45,615 nucleotides of DNA from Solirhodobacter olei (GTDB lineage: Bacteria > Pseudomonadota > Alphaproteobacteria > Rhodobacterales > Rhodobacteraceae). The notes beneath the pieces are model-generated. The model searched no databases and had not been told where the DNA came from. It was given only the letters and a program-made list of their open reading frames with translations. The stretch covers positions 1 through 45,615 of the forward strand of contig NZ_RRYH01000033.1 of NCBI RefSeq assembly GCF_004010155.1, given 5' to 3'. Positions within the stretch are counted from its first letter, which is position 1, and every line of letters starts with the position of its first letter. Both the position numbers and the translations under genes were made by a program. Positions 2,902-38,599 of this stretch are shown piece by piece.

Positions 2902-3071
2902 GGGCGGGGCCAGAGCGATGGATCACGTCTATCTAGGGCGGCGGGCGGCAAATTGAAACAATTTCCCCGGGCGCGACACGTCCGCGTGAAAAAAACACCA
3001 CAAGGCTTGTCAGCGCGTGGGGCAGGGCGCATCTGCGATAGGCATGCAAGACCGTGACGGAGACCCAGTGC

Positions 3072-3758
3072 ATGGCAAACCTTAAGAAAATCCTGCTCGT
3101 AGACGACGAAGAAGACCTGCGTGAGGCGCTGTCCGAACAGCTGGTGATGACCGAAGACTTCGACGTTTTCGAAGCCGGCGACGGACATGGCGCGATGGAT
3201 CGTCTCAAAGGCGGTCACTACGACCTGATCATCCTCGATGTCGGCCTGCCGGATACGGACGGGCGCGAACTGTGCCGCCGGATGCGCAAGCAGGGCGTGA
3301 AATGCCCGGTGCTGATGCTGACCGGCCACGACACGGACAGCGACACGATCCTCGGCCTCGACTCCGGGGCGAACGACTACGTGACGAAGCCGTTCAAGTT
3401 CCCCGTGCTTCTGGCCCGGATCCGGGCGCAGCTGCGCCAGCACGAGCAATCGGAAGACGCCGTCTTCCAGCTTGGCCCCTACACGTTCCGCCCGGCCCAG
3501 AAGGTGCTGGTGGACGACCGCGACCGGAAGATCCGGCTGACGGAGAAGGAGACCAACATCCTGAAGTTCCTCTACCGCGCGACCGAGGGCGTCGTGCCGC
3601 GCGAGGTGCTTCTGCACGAGGTCTGGGGCTACAACGCCGGCGTGACCACGCACACGCTGGAAACCCACATCTACCGGCTGCGTCAGAAGATCGAGCCCGA
3701 TCCCTCGAACGCGCGTCTGCTGGTGACTGAATCGGGCGGTTACCGCCTCGTCGCCTAG
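3072..3758 (+). CDS. OmpR/PhoB-family response regulator (stand-alone)
   Basis: A 228-residue two-domain regulator. The receiver domain (1-120) has the acidic pair Asp11-Asp12, phosphoacceptor Asp56 and the VTKPF lysine motif. The winged-helix DNA-binding domain (about 130-228) ends in the typical THTLETHIYRLRQKIEPDPS recognition region and GGYRLV. The ATG at 3072 has GGAG at 3059-3062, so I prefer it over an in-frame GTG at 3054 that lacks a ribosome-binding site. No sensor kinase is adjacent. The receiver start (KKILLVDDEEDLRE) recalls CenR-type envelope regulators of alphaproteobacteria, but this is tentative. Immediately downstream lie two tandem small-RNA units. Confidence 0.93.
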   Translation: MANLKKILLVDDEEDLREALSEQLVMTEDFDVFEAGDGHGAMDRLKGGHYDLIILDVGLPDTDGRELCRRMRKQGVKCPVLMLTGHDTDSDTILGLDSGANDYVTKPFKFPVLLARIRAQLRQHEQSEDAVFQLGPYTFRPAQKVLVDDRDRKIRLTEKETNILKFLYRATEGVVPREVLLHEVWGYNAGVTTHTLETHIYRLRQKIEPDPSNARLLVTESGGYRLVA

Positions 3759-3796: not shown

Positions 3797-3895
3797 TGTA
3801 GTGCAAGATCCGGTACAAGTTCCCCTCGCCGCGTCGGGGTGAAGACGCGGCTCCTCCCTGTTGGACTGGCCCGGCCTCGCGCCGGGCCTTTTTTT
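3797..3895 (+). ncRNA. Candidate small RNA, copy 1 (anti-Shine-Dalgarno type)
   Basis: No gene fits here, but the sequence is strongly structured. Stem 1 is CCGCGTC/GACGCGG (3829-3835 with 3844-3850) with a GGGGTGAA loop. A single-stranded linker TCCTCCCTGTTGGACT (3852-3867) follows, then a terminator stem GGCCCGGC/GCCGGGCC (3868-3888) with seven T. The linker contains CCTCCC, complementary to Shine-Dalgarno sequences. A -10-like TAAAAT at 3785-3790 puts a start near 3797 (plus or minus 10). The same layout recurs 248 bases downstream with stem-preserving changes. It resembles alphaproteobacterial anti-SD sRNAs (suhB/alpha-r14 family) in architecture; the family name is tentative. Confidence 0.65.
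3868..3895 (+). terminator. Intrinsic terminator of sRNA copy 1
   Basis: An 8-bp all-GC stem (3868-3875 with 3881-3888) followed by seven T. It could also end the response-regulator transcript. Confidence 0.85.
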
Positions 3896-4039: not shown

Positions 4040-4144
4040 TGAGTGGCCCATGGGCCGATTTGACGGAACCCCCTGGCCGCGTCGGGGTAATGATGCGGAT
4101 CCTCCCTGTTGGACTGGCCCGGCCTCCGGCCGGGCCTTTCTTTT
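4040..4144 (+). ncRNA. Candidate small RNA, copy 2 (anti-Shine-Dalgarno type)
   Basis: Second copy of the unit at 3797-3895. Stem 1 is CCGCGTC/GATGCGG (4077-4083 with 4092-4098); compared with copy 1 a C became T in the 3' arm and gives a G:U pair, so pairing is kept. The linker TCCTCCCTGTTGGACT (4100-4115) is identical to copy 1 over 16 bases. The terminator is GGCCCGGCC/GGCCGGGCC (4116-4124 with 4128-4136) followed by a T-rich tract to 4144. A TATATC element at 4028-4033 aligns with the TAAAAT of copy 1. Conservation of both stems and the linker, with a divergent 5' part, is what a duplicated regulatory RNA would show. Confidence 0.65.
4116..4144 (+). terminator. Intrinsic terminator of sRNA copy 2
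   Basis: A 9-bp all-GC stem (4116-4124 with 4128-4136), 3-nt loop, then TTTCTTTT. It also faces the convergent MFS gene that ends at 4227. Confidence 0.8.
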
Positions 4145-6418: not shown

Positions 6419-6473
6419 CTCACGGCCGTCTCACGGGACCCTCACGGCGTCCTCACGGCCGGGCACGGGGTTT
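6419..6473 (+). repeat. Array of 11-bp direct repeats, CTCACGG core
   Basis: Four consecutive 11-bp units starting at 6419, 6430, 6441 and 6452 each begin with CTCACGG; a fifth weaker unit (GCACGGG) starts at 6463. Strict 11-bp spacing of a 7-bp core puts each copy on the same face of the helix, the layout of OmpR/PhoB-family operators. It lies 90-144 bases upstream of the secreted protein gene at 6563. Confidence 0.7.
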
Positions 6474-19341: not shown

Positions 19342-19716
19342 TTATTCCTCCGCGGCGGCCTCGGCCGGGGCGGCGGCGGCTTCGGCCTTCTTGGCCTTCT
19401 CCGCGGCGCGCTCCTGCGCCTTCTTGCCCGGGGCGCCGGCCTTCAGGTTGGCGCGCTCGGCCTTCGGGCGGTCGCCCGAGGCTTCGAGGAAGCGGGCGAC
19501 GCGGTCGGTCGGCTGGGCGCCCTGGCCGAGCCAGTACTGCACGCGCTCCATGTTCATCTTCACGCGGTTCTCGTCGCCCTTCGGCAGCATCGGGTTGTAG
19601 GTGCCGAGCTTCTCAAGGAAGCGGCCGTCGCGCGGCATGCGCGAGTCGGTGGCGACGATGGCGTAGTGCGGGCGCTTCTTCGAGCCACCGCGGGCGAGGC
19701 GGATTTTCATGGACAT
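19342..19716 (-). CDS. rpsP: 30S ribosomal protein S16
   Basis: A 124-residue S16. The core ([26 protein letters not shown]... through RFLEASGD) is the standard ~80 residues; the remaining ~40 residues are a Lys/Ala/Glu-rich tail, common in alphaproteobacteria. It opens the rpsP-rimM-trmD-rplS group and lies 56 bases after chorismate mutase. Confidence 0.97.
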
Positions 19717-19772: not shown

Positions 19773-20081
19773 CTATTTCTGCAGTTTCTCGTGGTGTCGG
19801 ATCACTTCGGAGATGATGAACGCCAGGAATTTTTTGGCGAATTCGGGGTCGAGGCCGCTTTCCCTGCTCAGCGCCTCCAGCCGCTCGATCTGGCGGCTTT
19901 CGCGCGCCGGATCGGAGGGCGGCAGGTCGTGTTCCGCCTTCAGGCGGCCCACCGACTGGGTGTGCTTGAAGCGCTCGGCCAGGGTGTAGACGAGGATCGC
20001 GTCGAGCCGGTCGATCGACTCGCGATGCTCTTTCAGCAGCACCTGGGCGCGGCGGGCGTCCTCTGTCAGCTCTGCCGTCAT
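19773..20081 (-). CDS. Chorismate mutase, AroQ class
   Basis: A 102-residue all-helical mutase converting chorismate to prephenate for Phe and Tyr synthesis. Motif residues: Arg20 and Asp24 in HRESID, Lys48 in GRLK, and Arg60-Glu61 in DPARE. It is a stand-alone cytoplasmic form without fused dehydratase or signal peptide. It lies between four acetyltransferase genes and rpsP. An array of 11-bp repeats occupies its upstream region (20119-20173), 38 bases or more before the start, making this gene and the rps operon downstream the likely controlled unit. Confidence 0.93.
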   Translation of the reverse strand: MTAELTEDARRAQVLLKEHRESIDRLDAILVYTLAERFKHTQSVGRLKAEHDLPPSDPARESRQIERLEALSRESGLDPEFAKKFLAFIISEVIRHHEKLQK

Positions 20082-20118: not shown

Positions 20119-20173
20119 ATACCGCAAACGCACCGTATTCGCACCGCTTTGGCACCGCTTTGGCACCGGCATC
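20119..20173. repeat. Array of 11-bp direct repeats, GCACCG core (locus A)
   Basis: Five 11-bp units start at 20119, 20130, 20141, 20152 and 20163. The middle four begin GCACCG; units 3 and 4 are identical (GCACCGCTTTG) and unit 2 is GCACCGTATTC. The first unit keeps only ACCG. A conserved 6-bp GC core with a more AT-rich 5-bp tail at 11-bp spacing is the architecture of Pho-box type operators. It sits directly upstream of chorismate mutase. A second array with the same core is at 38260-38303. Confidence 0.75.
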
Positions 20174-20210: not shown

Positions 20211-20732
20211 TCATGCCGCAAGCTCCGACGGTCCCGGGTGGCGCCAGACCTGCATGGTGCCGTGGCGTTCGTGGGTAAACTCGCCCTCGTGCCGGGCGCC
20301 GAGGCGGCGGCAGACGGCCATGGAGCCGGTGTTGGCGGGCTTCACCAGGCTGATCGCGGTGGTCCAGCCGAGCGGGCCGTAGGCGAAGGCGCGGGCGGCG
20401 AGCGCCGCCTCGGTGGCGTAGCCCTGGCCCTCGTGGCCGTCGAAGAGATCCCAGCCGAGTTCGCCCTCCGGCCAGCCGTCGGGCATGTAGGGGCCGACGA
20501 GGCCGACGGGTTCATCGCTGTCGCGGCGCGCCACGATCCAGCGGCCGAAGCCGTTGAGCTGCCATTGCCCGATCTCCATCGCCAGCATCCGCCAGGCGAG
20601 TTCCCGCGTCAGCGGGCCGCCAACGAAATGCGAGCGGGGGCCGGCGTAGAAGGCGGCGAAGGGCGGGAAGTCGCGCGCCTCGGGCGCGCGAAGGATCAGC
20701 CTGTCCGTGGTCAGCGTCGGGATCGGGGTCAT
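20211..20732 (-). CDS. GNAT acetyltransferase, copy 4 of 4
   Basis: A 173-residue RimJ/RimL-type acetyltransferase: TDRLILRAPEARDF at the start, ELGWDLFDGHEGQGYATEA carrying the acetyl-CoA pyrophosphate loop (Q-G-x-A), and NTGSMAVCRRLGA near the end. It is most like copy 3 at 20729 (same ELGWDLFDGHEGQG). The ATG at 20732 overlaps the copy 3 stop. Such enzymes N-acetylate protein N-termini, amino-sugars or small amines; the substrate is unknown. The 5' open frame beyond 20732 belongs to no gene. Confidence 0.9.
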   Translation of the reverse strand: MTPIPTLTTDRLILRAPEARDFPPFAAFYAGPRSHFVGGPLTRELAWRMLAMEIGQWQLNGFGRWIVARRDSDEPVGLVGPYMPDGWPEGELGWDLFDGHEGQGYATEAALAARAFAYGPLGWTTAISLVKPANTGSMAVCRRLGARHEGEFTHERHGTMQVWRHPGPSELAA

Positions 20733-21262
20733 GCGGCGATCTCCTCCGGCGCGGGGTGACGCCAGATGTCGAGGCTGCCGTGGCGGATATGGTCGAACCG
20801 CCCGTCGATCCGGGCGCCGAGCCGGCGGGCGAGGGCGGCCGAGCGGGTGTTGTCCGGGGCGATAAGGCTGATCAGCGTGGTCCAGCCAAGGGTCCGGTAG
20901 CAATGGTCGCGCACGGCGCGGGCGGCTTCGGACGCAAGGCCCTGGCCCTCGTGCCCGTCGAAGAGATCCCAGCCCAGTTCCGGTTCGGGCCATGCGGGCG
21001 GATGGATGATGCCGACGAGCCCGGCCCTGGCCCCGGTATCGCGGCGGACCACCGTCCAGCGGCCGTAGCCGCGCATCGGCCAATGGCCGATCTCGATGGC
21101 GAGCTGGCGCCAGGCATGGGCCGGATCGAGCGGGCCGCCCGCGAAGGCGGAGCGCGGGCTGGCGTAGAACGCCGCGACGGCGTCGAGGTCGCCGGCCTCC
21201 GGCGCGCGCAGCACGAGCCGCTCGGTTTCCAGCACGGGAATATTGGCGAGGGCCGGTGTCAT
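20729..21262 (-). CDS. GNAT acetyltransferase, copy 3 of 4
   Basis: A 177-residue acetyltransferase: ETERLVLRAPEAGDLDAVAAFYASPRS start, HEGQGLASEA acetyl-CoA loop, DNTRSAALARRLGA. It overlaps both neighbours by 4 bases (ATGA), so the set is translated as a chain. It shares with copy 4 the segment ELGWDLFDGHEGQG, indicating the most recent duplication of the four. Confidence 0.9.
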   Translation of the reverse strand: MTPALANIPVLETERLVLRAPEAGDLDAVAAFYASPRSAFAGGPLDPAHAWRQLAIEIGHWPMRGYGRWTVVRRDTGARAGLVGIIHPPAWPEPELGWDLFDGHEGQGLASEAARAVRDHCYRTLGWTTLISLIAPDNTRSAALARRLGARIDGRFDHIRHGSLDIWRHPAPEEIAA

Positions 21263-21771
21263 GCCGCCCTCCCGAGGTCGTGGACGATGACGACATCGCC
21301 CGGGTCGGTGCCCGGCAGGTTCGGGTCGATCCGGCCGCCGAGGCGCAGGCCGAGCGCGATGGAGCGTTCGTTTTCCGGCGCGATGTAATTCACCAGCCGG
21401 GTCCAGCCGAGGTCGGTTACGACCCAGCCCATGACGGCGCGGGCGGCCTCGTGGGCCACGCCCTTGCCCTCTGCCTCGGGGGTGACGAACCAGCCGAGTT
21501 CGGCCTCAGGGTAATCGGCGGCGTGGTAGATGCCGACCTCGCCGAGATAGGCGCCGGTGGCGCGGTCCTCGACCGCGAAGGGGCCGTAGCCCATCAGCGG
21601 CCATTGCCCGACTTCGGAGGCGAAGAGGCGCCAGGCGGCGCGGCGGTCGAGCGGCCCGCCCTCGTGGACCGAGCGGGGCGTGGCGAAGAATGCGGCGCGG
21701 GGCTCGAAATCCTCGAGCCTCGGCATCCGCAGCGTCAGCCGCTCGGTGGAGAGGGTGGGCGCGATCGTCAT
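21259..21771 (-). CDS. GNAT acetyltransferase, copy 2 of 4
   Basis: A 170-residue acetyltransferase: STERLTLRMPRLEDFEPRAAFFATPRS start, AEGKGVAHEA acetyl-CoA loop, ENERSIALGLRLGG. It ends differently (DPGDVVIVHDLGRAA instead of the H-P-x-P ending of the others). It overlaps the neighbours by 4 bases on both sides. Confidence 0.9.
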   Translation of the reverse strand: MTIAPTLSTERLTLRMPRLEDFEPRAAFFATPRSVHEGGPLDRRAAWRLFASEVGQWPLMGYGPFAVEDRATGAYLGEVGIYHAADYPEAELGWFVTPEAEGKGVAHEAARAVMGWVVTDLGWTRLVNYIAPENERSIALGLRLGGRIDPNLPGTDPGDVVIVHDLGRAA

Positions 21772-22316
21772 GCGGCAGCCACGGCCGGGCCGGGGTGGCG
21801 GTAGATCAGCGCGGGCTTGCCGGCGGGCGAGATCCAGTCGCGTTCGTGCGTCGCGCCGAGGCGTTCGGCCAGCGCGATGGAGCGGGCGTTGTCGGGCGCG
21901 ATGACGGAGGTCAGCGGCCCCCAGCCGAGCGTGTCATAGGCATAGGCGCGCAGCCGCAGCGCGGCCTCGGACGCGAAGCCGCGTCCCTCGAAGCCTTCGT
22001 AGACGGCCCAGCCAAGCTCGACCTCCGGCCAGCCCTCGGGGTTCCAGAAGCCGGCATGGCCGACATGGGCGCCGGTCCTGCGCTCCAGAATATGGAACAG
22101 GCCGTAGCCCTTCAGCAGCCAGTGGCCAAGCTCGGCCGCGAAGGCGCGCCAGGCGGCGGCGCGGGCGAGCGGGCCGCCCATGTGGCGCGAGCGCTCCGTC
22201 GCCCAGAAGGCGGCGGCGCTGTCGAAGTCCTGCGTTTCGGGCGCGCGCAGGATCAGCCGCTCGGTGGTCAGGACGGGGGCGTGGATGAGGGCGTTGCCCG
22301 GGGTGCGCGCGTTCAT
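21768..22316 (-). CDS. GNAT acetyltransferase, copy 1 of 4
   Basis: A 182-residue acetyltransferase: TTERLILRAPETQDFDSAAAFWATERS start, FEGRGFASEA acetyl-CoA loop, DNARSIALAERLGA, ending YRHPGPAVAAA. Its ATG at 22316 overlaps the ffh stop, so the four-enzyme chain begins immediately at the end of ffh. All four share the T-E/D-R-L-x-L-R-x-P start and a conserved S/R-GGPL motif near residue 45. Confidence 0.9.
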   Translation of the reverse strand: MNARTPGNALIHAPVLTTERLILRAPETQDFDSAAAFWATERSRHMGGPLARAAAWRAFAAELGHWLLKGYGLFHILERRTGAHVGHAGFWNPEGWPEVELGWAVYEGFEGRGFASEAALRLRAYAYDTLGWGPLTSVIAPDNARSIALAERLGATHERDWISPAGKPALIYRHPGPAVAAA

Positions 22317-23857: not shown

Positions 23858-23977
23858 ATTGGCCTCCTTCGACCTGTTGCTGCCTGCCCCGCCATGTAAG
23901 ACGGAACGCTCCAAACGCCAACGTCACCCGCGGGCGCGACGCGCTGGCGGATGGCGATCCCGGGACAAGCCCAAGGG

Positions 23978-37092: not shown

Positions 37093-38247
37093 ATGGACAC
37101 CCGCAGTATCCTCGACCGGCTCATCGGCTTTCCCACGGTAAGCAGCGAACCCAACATGGCGCTGATGGAATGGGTGCGGGATCTCCTTGGTCAGGCGGGG
37201 ATCGAGGCGGTGCTGATCCCCGACGAGAGCGGGAAGAAGGCCAATCTTTACGCGACCATAGGGCCGAAGGACGTGCCGGGCGTCATGCTTTCCGGCCATA
37301 CCGACGTGGTGCCGGTCGAGGGCCAGGACTGGAGCCGGGACCCGTTCCGGATGGTGGAGGCGGAGGGGCGCTATTACGGGCGGGGCACGACGGACATGAA
37401 GGGGTTCGTGGCCTGCGCGATCTCGGCCGGGCTGGCGGCGGCGAAGCGGGATCTGAAGGTGCCTTTGCACCTCGCCTTCAGCCATGACGAGGAGGTGGGG
37501 TGCCTCGGCGTGCGCTCGCTGATCGGGATGCTGGAGGGGGCGCCGGTGCGGCCCGCGATGTGCATCGTGGGGGAGCCGACGGCGATGCAGGTGGCGACCG
37601 GCCACAAGGGGAAGGTGGCGCTTCGGGCGACCTGCATCGGGCGCGAGGGGCATTCGGCGCTGGCGCCGCTGGCGCTGAACGCGCTGCACCTTGGGGCGGA
37701 GTTCATCGGCGCGGTCAGGGACCTGCAGGCCGAGGTGGCGGAAACGGGCCTGAAGGACGGCGATTACGACGTGGCCTACACCACCATCCACGTCGGCAAG
37801 ATGCAGGGCGGCGTGCAGGTTAATATCGTTCCGAACCAATGCGTTATCGATTTCGAGATCCGCAGTCTGGCAGAGGACGACCCGGCCGCCCTGATCGCGC
37901 GGCTGGAGGCGGCGGCGGAGGGGATCGTGGCGCCGCTGAGGGACGCGTTCCCGGAAGCCGCGATCCGGATCGAGCGGCTCTGGGATTACCCGGGGCTCGG
38001 CACGCCCTCGGACGCGCGGGTGGTGAATTTCGTCAAGGGGCTGACCGGCGCGAACGGGACGATCAAGGTCGCCTTCGGGACGGAAGGGGGCCTTTTCACC
38101 AAGGCGCTGGGGATCCCGACGGTGATCTGCGGGCCGGGGTCGATGGCGCAGGGGCACAAGCCGGACGAGTTCGTCAGCCTCGAGCAGATGGCGCGCTGCG
38201 AGGCGATGCTGGCCCGGCTGGTGGACCGGCTGGAGGCCGGGATCTGA
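37093..38247 (+). CDS. argE: Acetylornithine deacetylase
   Basis: A 384-residue M20-type dizinc amidohydrolase that removes acetyl from N-acetylornithine in arginine synthesis. Metal and catalytic residues: His69 and Asp71 (SGHTDVVP), Asp101 (GTTDMKG), Glu133/Glu134 (HDEEVGC), Glu161 (GEPT), and the late His in AQGHKPDEF. ATG 37093 has GGAGG at 37081-37085. A very long open extension upstream is antisense to copA and not coding. Most ArgE-like proteins of this class also act on related N-acyl substrates, so the exact substrate is inferred. Confidence 0.9.
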   Translation: MDTRSILDRLIGFPTVSSEPNMALMEWVRDLLGQAGIEAVLIPDESGKKANLYATIGPKDVPGVMLSGHTDVVPVEGQDWSRDPFRMVEAEGRYYGRGTTDMKGFVACAISAGLAAAKRDLKVPLHLAFSHDEEVGCLGVRSLIGMLEGAPVRPAMCIVGEPTAMQVATGHKGKVALRATCIGREGHSALAPLALNALHLGAEFIGAVRDLQAEVAETGLKDGDYDVAYTTIHVGKMQGGVQVNIVPNQCVIDFEIRSLAEDDPAALIARLEAAAEGIVAPLRDAFPEAAIRIERLWDYPGLGTPSDARVVNFVKGLTGANGTIKVAFGTEGGLFTKALGIPTVICGPGSMAQGHKPDEFVSLEQMARCEAMLARLVDRLEAGI

Positions 38248-38259
38248 GGTCACGGGCGG

Positions 38260-38303
38260 GGACCGATTTGGCACCGCTTTCGCACCGTAAAAGCACCGTA
38301 TTT
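38260..38303. repeat. Array of 11-bp direct repeats, GCACCG core (locus B)
   Basis: Four 11-bp units start at 38260, 38271, 38282 and 38293. The first begins GGACCG, the others GCACCG; the tails are AT-rich (CTTTC, TAAAA, TATTT). Core, unit length and strand match the array at 20119-20173. It starts 12 bases after the argE stop and runs into an otherwise gene-free 352-base gap. Confidence 0.75.
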
Positions 38304-38599
38304 CGGCGCGGCCGGGCAAGGCTGCGTTAACCGGGGTGCGGCTGCGGGCGAGAGGAGGGCCAGAGGCCGTCCGCGGGTGGGGCCCGGCGGCGGCGCGGGT
38401 CTGTCCGTTTATGGTTTAAAGACCCCCTTCGACTTGCCGGGGTGGTGAGGCCCAAGAAGCGCCCGCCGTTGGGGGCGGACGGGCGCTGGCCCGGCGGTGC
38501 TGCGCACCGCCGTTTCGGGCCGAAAGGAGTGGGTGGTTGGGCATCGCCCGGTGGTGCGCAATGAATGCGCACCCCACGGGGCCGGGCGGGTCCTGGGAC
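38304..38599. other. Gene-free gap with three hairpins
   Basis: Between argE and the convergent aldehyde dehydrogenase no credible gene is seen. Structures: GCGCCCG/CGGGCGC (38459-38465 with 38479-38485), a perfect 9-bp CGGCGGTGC/GCACCGCCG (38492-38500 with 38504-38512) followed by TTT, and an 8-bp GGTGCGCA/TGCGCACC (38553-38560 with 38566-38573). The middle one can serve as terminator for a plus-strand RNA starting downstream of the 11-bp repeats. Confidence 0.45.
38492..38515 (+). terminator. Possible terminator in the argE-aldehyde dehydrogenase gap
   Basis: A perfect 9-bp stem CGGCGGTGC/GCACCGCCG with a 3-base loop followed by TTT. Confidence 0.45.

Follow-up and report, generated by a model that had tools for sequence, protein, structure and literature searches.

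Dispersed intergenic repeats are common in bacterial genomes, and to our knowledge few of them keep both their sites and an 11-bp geometry while the recognition word changes. Plasmid centromere and iteron arrays, to which small RHH or winged-helix proteins bind, repeat a unit of about one helical turn directly and in tandem. CenR sites of Rhodobacter sphaeroides, operators of the OmpR/PhoB family, are head-to-tail direct repeats with an 11-bp period; in the accessible part of the published account their motif is TGA-N8-TGA, near promoters and upstream of start sites. REP elements of the GTAG and CGTC families are palindromes of 20–40 bp, the GTAG type having a linked RAYT transposase; as described in the accessible text of PMC3733652, they are dispersed and intergenic, form partly species-specific families and lie downstream of coding regions, mainly between unidirectional and convergent ORFs. 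The DNA uptake sequence (DUS) of the Neisseriaceae promotes the uptake of own DNA and is present in hundreds to thousands of copies per genome; according to the accessible text of PMC3630211, it is a single family of sites with species dialects.

How does the present locus compare with these systems? The window, by which we mean the whole stretch of 45,615 nucleotides that was analysed (Solirhodobacter olei, contig NZ_RRYH01000033.1), contains two arrays of head-to-tail units in which a six-base core recurs every 11 bp (table 1). With plasmid centromere and iteron arrays they have the tandem direct repeats of about one turn in common, but they are dispersed over the chromosome and not gathered at one locus beside a par or rep gene. 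With CenR sites they share direct repetition and period, but they have another core, extend to four or five units and lie at gene ends; moreover, the array core varies between species, whereas the CenR binding domain does not. Like REP elements they are dispersed, intergenic and found downstream of genes and in convergent gaps, yet they are phased direct repeats. Like the DUS they form one site family with dialects, but they number in the tens (77 matches to our array model, R1, below E=1e-4 in 4.78 Mb), are tandem and phased, and keep positions across species. As far as the published excerpts go, REPs, DUS dialects and CenR sites each have only one trait in common with the arrays, which look like docking sites for a DNA-binding protein rather than the switch of one operon. 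We give about even weight to the reading that the two arrays of the window are copies of dispersed protein-binding arrays, with a putative oligomeric reader, a boundary role at gene ends, and co-evolution of protein and site.

Table 1. Features of the window that bear on the two arrays (positions are those of the window).
Feature	Position	Strand	Remarks
Five-unit 11-bp array	20119..20168	+ (GCACCG reads on +)	spacers CAAAC, TATTC, CTTTG, CTTTG; model R1 E=7.2e-14
Four-unit 11-bp array (GGACCG, GCACCG x3)	38260..38298	+	model R1 E=1.4e-14
rpsP, ribosomal protein S16	19342..19716	-	TIGR00002 above cut-off; next gene after chorismate mutase
Chorismate mutase	19773..20081	-	NCBIfam NF006691 above cut-off; start codon 37 bp from array
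GNAT acetyltransferase	20211..20732	-	Pfam PF13302 above cut-off; 3' end (stop codon) 42 bp from array; start codon from home-made gene call
Four GNAT-like acetyltransferase ORFs in a row	20211..22316	-	between ffh and chorismate mutase; Pfam test on the last ORF
ffh sRNA (RF01793)	23917..23968	-	upstream of ffh
Acetylornithine deacetylase (ArgE type)	37093..38247	+	TIGR01892 above cut-off; 3' end abuts second array
Palindrome GGTGCGCAATGAATGCGCACC	38553..38573		another dispersed intergenic repeat
OmpR-family response regulator	3054..3758	+	PF00072 and PF00486; SorX downstream
SorX sRNA match (RF02784)	3822..3894	+	72.3 bits
SorX sRNA match (RF02784)	4070..4142	+	67 bits

Are the repeats real? 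An exact 11-bp period with 5-bp spacers runs through the first array, as the first-pass annotation had stated. Its further claim of a GCACCG core in all five units holds at 20130, 20141, 20152 and 20163; the unit at 20119 reads ATACCG. The recurrence of core and period that it reported further on is also present: GGACCG at 38260 is followed in 11-bp steps by GCACCG at 38271, 38282 and 38293. With at most one mismatch, GCACCGN5GCACCG has six matches in the window, against a mean of 1.35 and a maximum of 5 in 100 shuffles. Recurrence of the 11-bp pattern extends to the whole of the own genome (G000; 4.78 Mb in 122 contigs), where there are 101 exact GCACCG-N5-GCACCG pairs and 35 exact triplets, as opposed to 2 and 0 for the backward control. 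The 101 pairs make up 65 arrays. Six of these lie inside coding sequence and lack AT-rich spacers; together with locus L056, which fails the array model, they look like chance matches. Model R1, a sequence-only model built from 57 arrays (L056, L074 and the six coding ones being left out), finds 82 places in this genome at E<=1, the 77 already mentioned among them.

The usual array has about four 11-bp units, each R-Y-A-C-C-G plus a 5-bp AT-rich spacer, and exactly four in-phase ACCG occur in 45 of the 77 arrays. Successive ACCG are spaced by 11 bp in 185 cases, by 10 in 39 and by 22 in 11; the corresponding counts in the sister species G002 are 113 cases of 11, 4 of 12 and 2 of 10. In G000 the core hardly varies at its last four positions (A 0.95, C 0.99, C 0.94, G 0.98), and the spacer is AT-rich but otherwise free. 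The consensus in G000, G002 and the other sister species, G005, is a first TACCG unit followed by three RCACCG units, often with two upstream elements, YAAS at about 30 bp and RAAA at about 10 bp (found together in 32/77, 21/36 and 17/20 arrays, respectively). Many copies have an additional flanking consensus, GCAAG about 30 bp upstream, and some, judged by eye, end on one side in a short inverted repeat. When 220-bp stretches are compared, 53 of 59 arrays fall into similarity clusters. The pattern of the palindrome in table 1 has 32 copies in 771 kb of G000 stretches and none in 204 kb of G002; it lies near 11 of the 77 arrays.

A literature search, whose coverage excluded most subscription journals, returned no description of such arrays. 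Among named plasmids, one array query gave no match and another gave 16 weak ones; two Paracoccus records among these were inspected and contain no array. Six matches in contigs from other taxa were taken as chance. One contig of the own genome (C29, 208 kb) has no R1 match below E=1, where about three would be expected, and the arrays may avoid some replicons or regions.

Where do the arrays lie with respect to genes? The 20119 array precedes the start codon of chorismate mutase but lies equally just past the stop codon of the GNAT gene; the two genes are codirectional, reading from the ffh side to the rpsP side. The start of the 38260 array lies 13 bp beyond the acetylornithine deacetylase gene, and on its opposite side the array faces an aldehyde dehydrogenase gene, again at the 3' end; lying between two 3' ends, it is therefore upstream of no start codon. 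Genome-wide, by our home-made gene caller, 131 array gaps comprise 68 codirectional, 49 convergent and 14 divergent ones; among the 312 remaining gaps of 100 bp or more in the same stretches the numbers are 158, 36 and 118. Convergent gaps are thus enriched for arrays (odds ratio 4.6, p=1.8e-9) and divergent gaps depleted (odds ratio 0.20, p=2.0e-9). Within codirectional gaps the array is nearer to the 3' end of the upstream gene in 54 of 68 cases, at a median of 36.5 bp compared with 113 bp to the next start. The 21 arrays of G001 and G113 divide into 6 convergent, 13 codirectional and 2 divergent. Among single loci of other genera this 3'-end bias, shown within one genus, is not seen: of the 33 with both neighbours called, 21 are codirectional, 7 divergent and 5 convergent. 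That set includes chance hits, and 3 of its 42 loci lie inside coding sequence.

The first-pass annotation had read the arrays as a regulon site controlling chorismate mutase and possibly the rpsP operon. The gap statistics do not support a promoter role, and the flanking genes share no evident function: the 103 proteins surveyed belong to 132 Pfam families, none of them present in more than 3, in a survey restricted to complete genes of 180–1200 bp and hence to part of the neighbours. Array orientation shows no preference either, the upstream gene reading towards the array in 82 cases and the downstream gene in 84. RNAalifold returned a consensus without pairs for the 100-bp array stretches, and an Rfam search of the window gave no match at the arrays, its only hits being the two SorX and one ffh sRNA of table 1. 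Since there is neither orientation preference nor consensus RNA structure, we conclude that, within the limits given with each count, the arrays are double-stranded elements that act at the level of DNA. Some of them, L044, L069 and L070 included, lie by eye downstream of apparent intrinsic terminators, which weakens the case for a role in termination.

Which protein might read the arrays? The layout has been correctly likened to that of sites bound by OmpR/PhoB-type regulators: the arrays are direct repeats at the 10–11-bp spacing of that class, head to tail, with a GC core and an AT-rich tail. The OmpR-family regulator encoded in the window had been proposed as the reader, a proposal that did not survive. 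Two SorX matches stand in tandem right behind its gene, a possible duplication of a 3'-UTR-derived sRNA. In the accessible portions of the two sources, SorX derives from the 3' end of RSP_0847 (PMC9438474), and RSP_0847 is CenR by name (PMC9275681). Because both SorX matches are directly downstream, the regulator is very probably CenR. Its gene is 91–95% identical in all 7 genus members, including those almost without arrays. Between G000 and G001, whose arrays use CGTATG, the DNA-binding domain has 4 differences in 85 residues. None falls in the segment TLETHIYRLRQKI, which we take to be the recognition helix. A domain so nearly identical cannot explain the change of core, and the published motif is another one; CenR was accordingly rejected as the reader that determines the dialect. 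TGA-N8-TGA itself has nine matches in the window, none of them at either array. CenR operators lie upstream of transcription units; the 38260 array does not, and divergent gaps are depleted of arrays genome-wide, the 20119 array alone standing upstream of a start codon. Elsewhere in the window (6420–6455, minus strand) three overlapping TGA-N8-TGA matches, with four TGA at 11-bp steps, form a candidate CenR site array.

If CenR is not the reader, do other OmpR-family proteins qualify? The PF00486 proteins of G000 and G001 (14 each, 26 of the 28 loci giving a protein) form 10 reciprocal pairs. Judged by eye, the presumed recognition helix is unchanged in 6 of these, conservatively changed in 1 and changed in 3, one of which is only 43% identical. 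The remaining leads in this family are two fast-evolving pairs with a changed helix, L350/L357 and L364/L363.

Are the arrays conserved in relatives, as had been expected of genuine sites? At E<=0.05 R1 matches number 78 in G000, 56 in G002, 72 in G005 (a genome 70% complete), 2 in G006, 1 in G004 and none in G001 and G003, so that the expectation was borne out in the two sister species. Positions are kept as well. Against a baseline of 0.20 (151 of 774 genes; orthologs of at least 60% identity within G000 stretches), 15 of the 20 array-flanking genes of G002 with a G000 ortholog are array-adjacent in G000 too (p=1.3e-7), as are 7 of 11 in G005 (p=0.0017) and 4 of 5 in G001, with its other core (p=0.0061, two of the flanks belonging to one array); for G113 the count is 0 of 1. 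In 18 pairs at orthologous positions in two species the ACCG cores are 97% identical, a value due partly to construction because the arrays were found via the core, whereas spacers are 58%, upstream flanks 50% (random pairs 43%) and downstream flanks 44% identical. The array between the GNAT and chorismate mutase genes recurs in G002, where the leader likewise measures 37 bp, lengths being counted by eye.

The junction past argE is an instance of a kept position with a changed core. G000, G002 and G005 have ACCG arrays there; at the same place G001 has CGTATG-GTTTG-CGTATG-TAAAT-CGTATG; G003, G004 and G006 have no array at this junction. CGTATG-N5-CGTATG occurs 24 times in G001 (control 0) and not at all in G000. 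Of 14 G001 arrays fetched, four have a counterpart with the ACCG core at the corresponding junction of another species, in like relative orientation: L281/L159, L285/L191, L288/window 38260 and L187, and L290/L051. The last is flanked by the genes of an Lrp-type regulator and an OsmC-family protein, a single case of a kept junction behind an Lrp-type gene. A further candidate, L287/L219 (G001–G005, 64%), is doubtful, its neighbour gene being in opposite orientation, and was not counted. In a small two-protein tree G003, G004 and G006 form one group (support 0.88), and G001 is placed next to G002 (0.80). With this weak support, the topology would mean that the arrays are ancestral, that one clade lost them and that the core was switched along the G001 branch. 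A relaxed scan of G006 gave one degenerate array, by eye at the same gene as L092. De novo searches of G003 (160 kb), G006 (140 kb) and G009 (100 kb) gave no three-unit arrays, save one chance-like hit in G006, a weak null since only about two arrays per genome are expected at G000 density.

How far does the architecture extend beyond the genus? Over the two triplet scans given below, 29 of 295 Rhodobacteraceae genomes have at least five triplets in one or the other, in genome-specific core and spacer dialects that include GCACCG, CGTATG, TGCATC and TGTACG. (In all triplet counts overlapping triplets are separate, near-palindromic cores count on both strands, and the places listed are part of the total.) CGTATG pairs number 167 in G113, 33 in G141, 19 in G055, 12 in G120 and 7 in G045; at least one pair is present in 28 of 195 genomes, the control gives 14 in G152, and outside the family only single matches were found. 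The pattern RYAYSK-NWWNN x3 matches in 41 of 295 family genomes, ten of which have at least five matches and a control of at most two: G000 88, G113 55, G176 44, G055 19, G186 14, G250 12 (control 2), G191 10, G277 9, G141 9 and G038 7. Its backward controls are not neutral in G109 (43), G301 (17), G192 (14), G242 (12) and G306 (9), genomes that carry TGYAYS arrays (98, 9, 44, 10 and 53, respectively); G109 was accordingly left out of the count for this pattern. TGYAYS-N5 x3 matches in 52 of 295 genomes, 21 of them with at least five, with 7 control matches in all 295; besides the values just given for G109, G306 and G192, examples are G277 (62) and G038 (53). Representative units are TGCATCGGATG (G277), TGTATGACTCC (G192), TGTACGGGTTG (G301) and CATATGGAATC (G176), and the common core form is Y-R-Y-A-Y-S, partly imposed by the search patterns. 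R1 itself is blind to other dialects, that of G001 among them, and scored a small number of candidates in each genome; it has a match at E<=0.001 in six of the 295: the own genome, G006 and four with one weak match each.

What else might the arrays be? The strongest rival is a REP-like repeat, selfish or formerly mobile, spread by a transposase and surviving downstream of genes where it is harmless. The placement is that of REPs as summarized above, the distribution is patchy, and both the GCAAG consensus and the clustering over 220-bp stretches speak for it. We nevertheless consider it unlikely: the units are direct repeats instead of palindromes, conservation focuses on the phased cores and the flanks diverge, junctions are common to species of about 80% protein identity, and copying alone would not be expected to change the core at a kept junction. 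Operators of a regulon under some OmpR-family protein that is not CenR would suit the 11-bp geometry with its GC core and AT tail, and the two fast-evolving pairs supply candidates; yet we regard this as quite unlikely, given the 3'-end placement with its depletion of divergent gaps, the incoherent functions of the flanking genes, and a helix left unchanged or conservatively changed in all but three of the ten pairs, one of the three being so divergent.

About equally unlikely, in our estimate, are sites at which topoisomerase or gyrase is loaded, or DNA wrapped, so as to relieve positive supercoils between converging units, phased AT tracts and pyrimidine–purine steps mattering more than base identity. 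Enriched convergent gaps, 11-bp phasing and dialect cores that fit Y-R-Y-A-Y-S, differing mostly by transitions (a fit owed in part to the patterns searched), speak for such sites; but shape alone would not require four nearly invariant core positions within a species, and gyrase is universal whereas the arrays are patchy. Dialects within one family recall a species-recognition signal of the DUS kind (PMC3630211, accessible part), which is very improbable for tandem phased units that occur in tens of copies and not thousands and are kept at orthologous junctions. Least credible is an RNA element of 3' UTRs, whether terminator, rut-like or stability element; closeness to 3' ends would suit it, but it was already disfavoured by the equal use of both strands relative to the transcript, the unpaired consensus and the lack of an Rfam match at the arrays.

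How, then, would protein-binding arrays at gene ends work? The 11-bp units place identical faces on nearly one side of the helix, as the sequence shows. Layout and conservation make it probable that a sequence-specific protein assembles on them as an oligomer, head to tail. The placement of the arrays at gene 3' ends and within convergent gaps makes a boundary at the ends of transcription units the likeliest function; it would act against read-through, as a roadblock or an insulator, or else serve as a topological clamp. Kept positions and changed core are both observed; the protein and its sites may have changed together between species, giving rise to dialects while site positions were partly kept. 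More tentatively, and with rather less than even confidence, we suggest a patchily kept site system across the Rhodobacteraceae: about four 11-bp units at transcription-unit ends, a dedicated oligomeric reader of fast-drifting specificity, and dialects at partly the same orthologous sites, which together would constitute a new gene-end boundary or chromosome-organising element.

These comparisons correct a tempting reading: the array that precedes a start codon did not prove to be an operator serving only the adjacent operon. Should one fast-evolving protein be the reader of the arrays, they would provide natural matched sets of protein and site in which to study how DNA-binding specificity changes, and possibly a gene-end boundary system in an ecologically important family.
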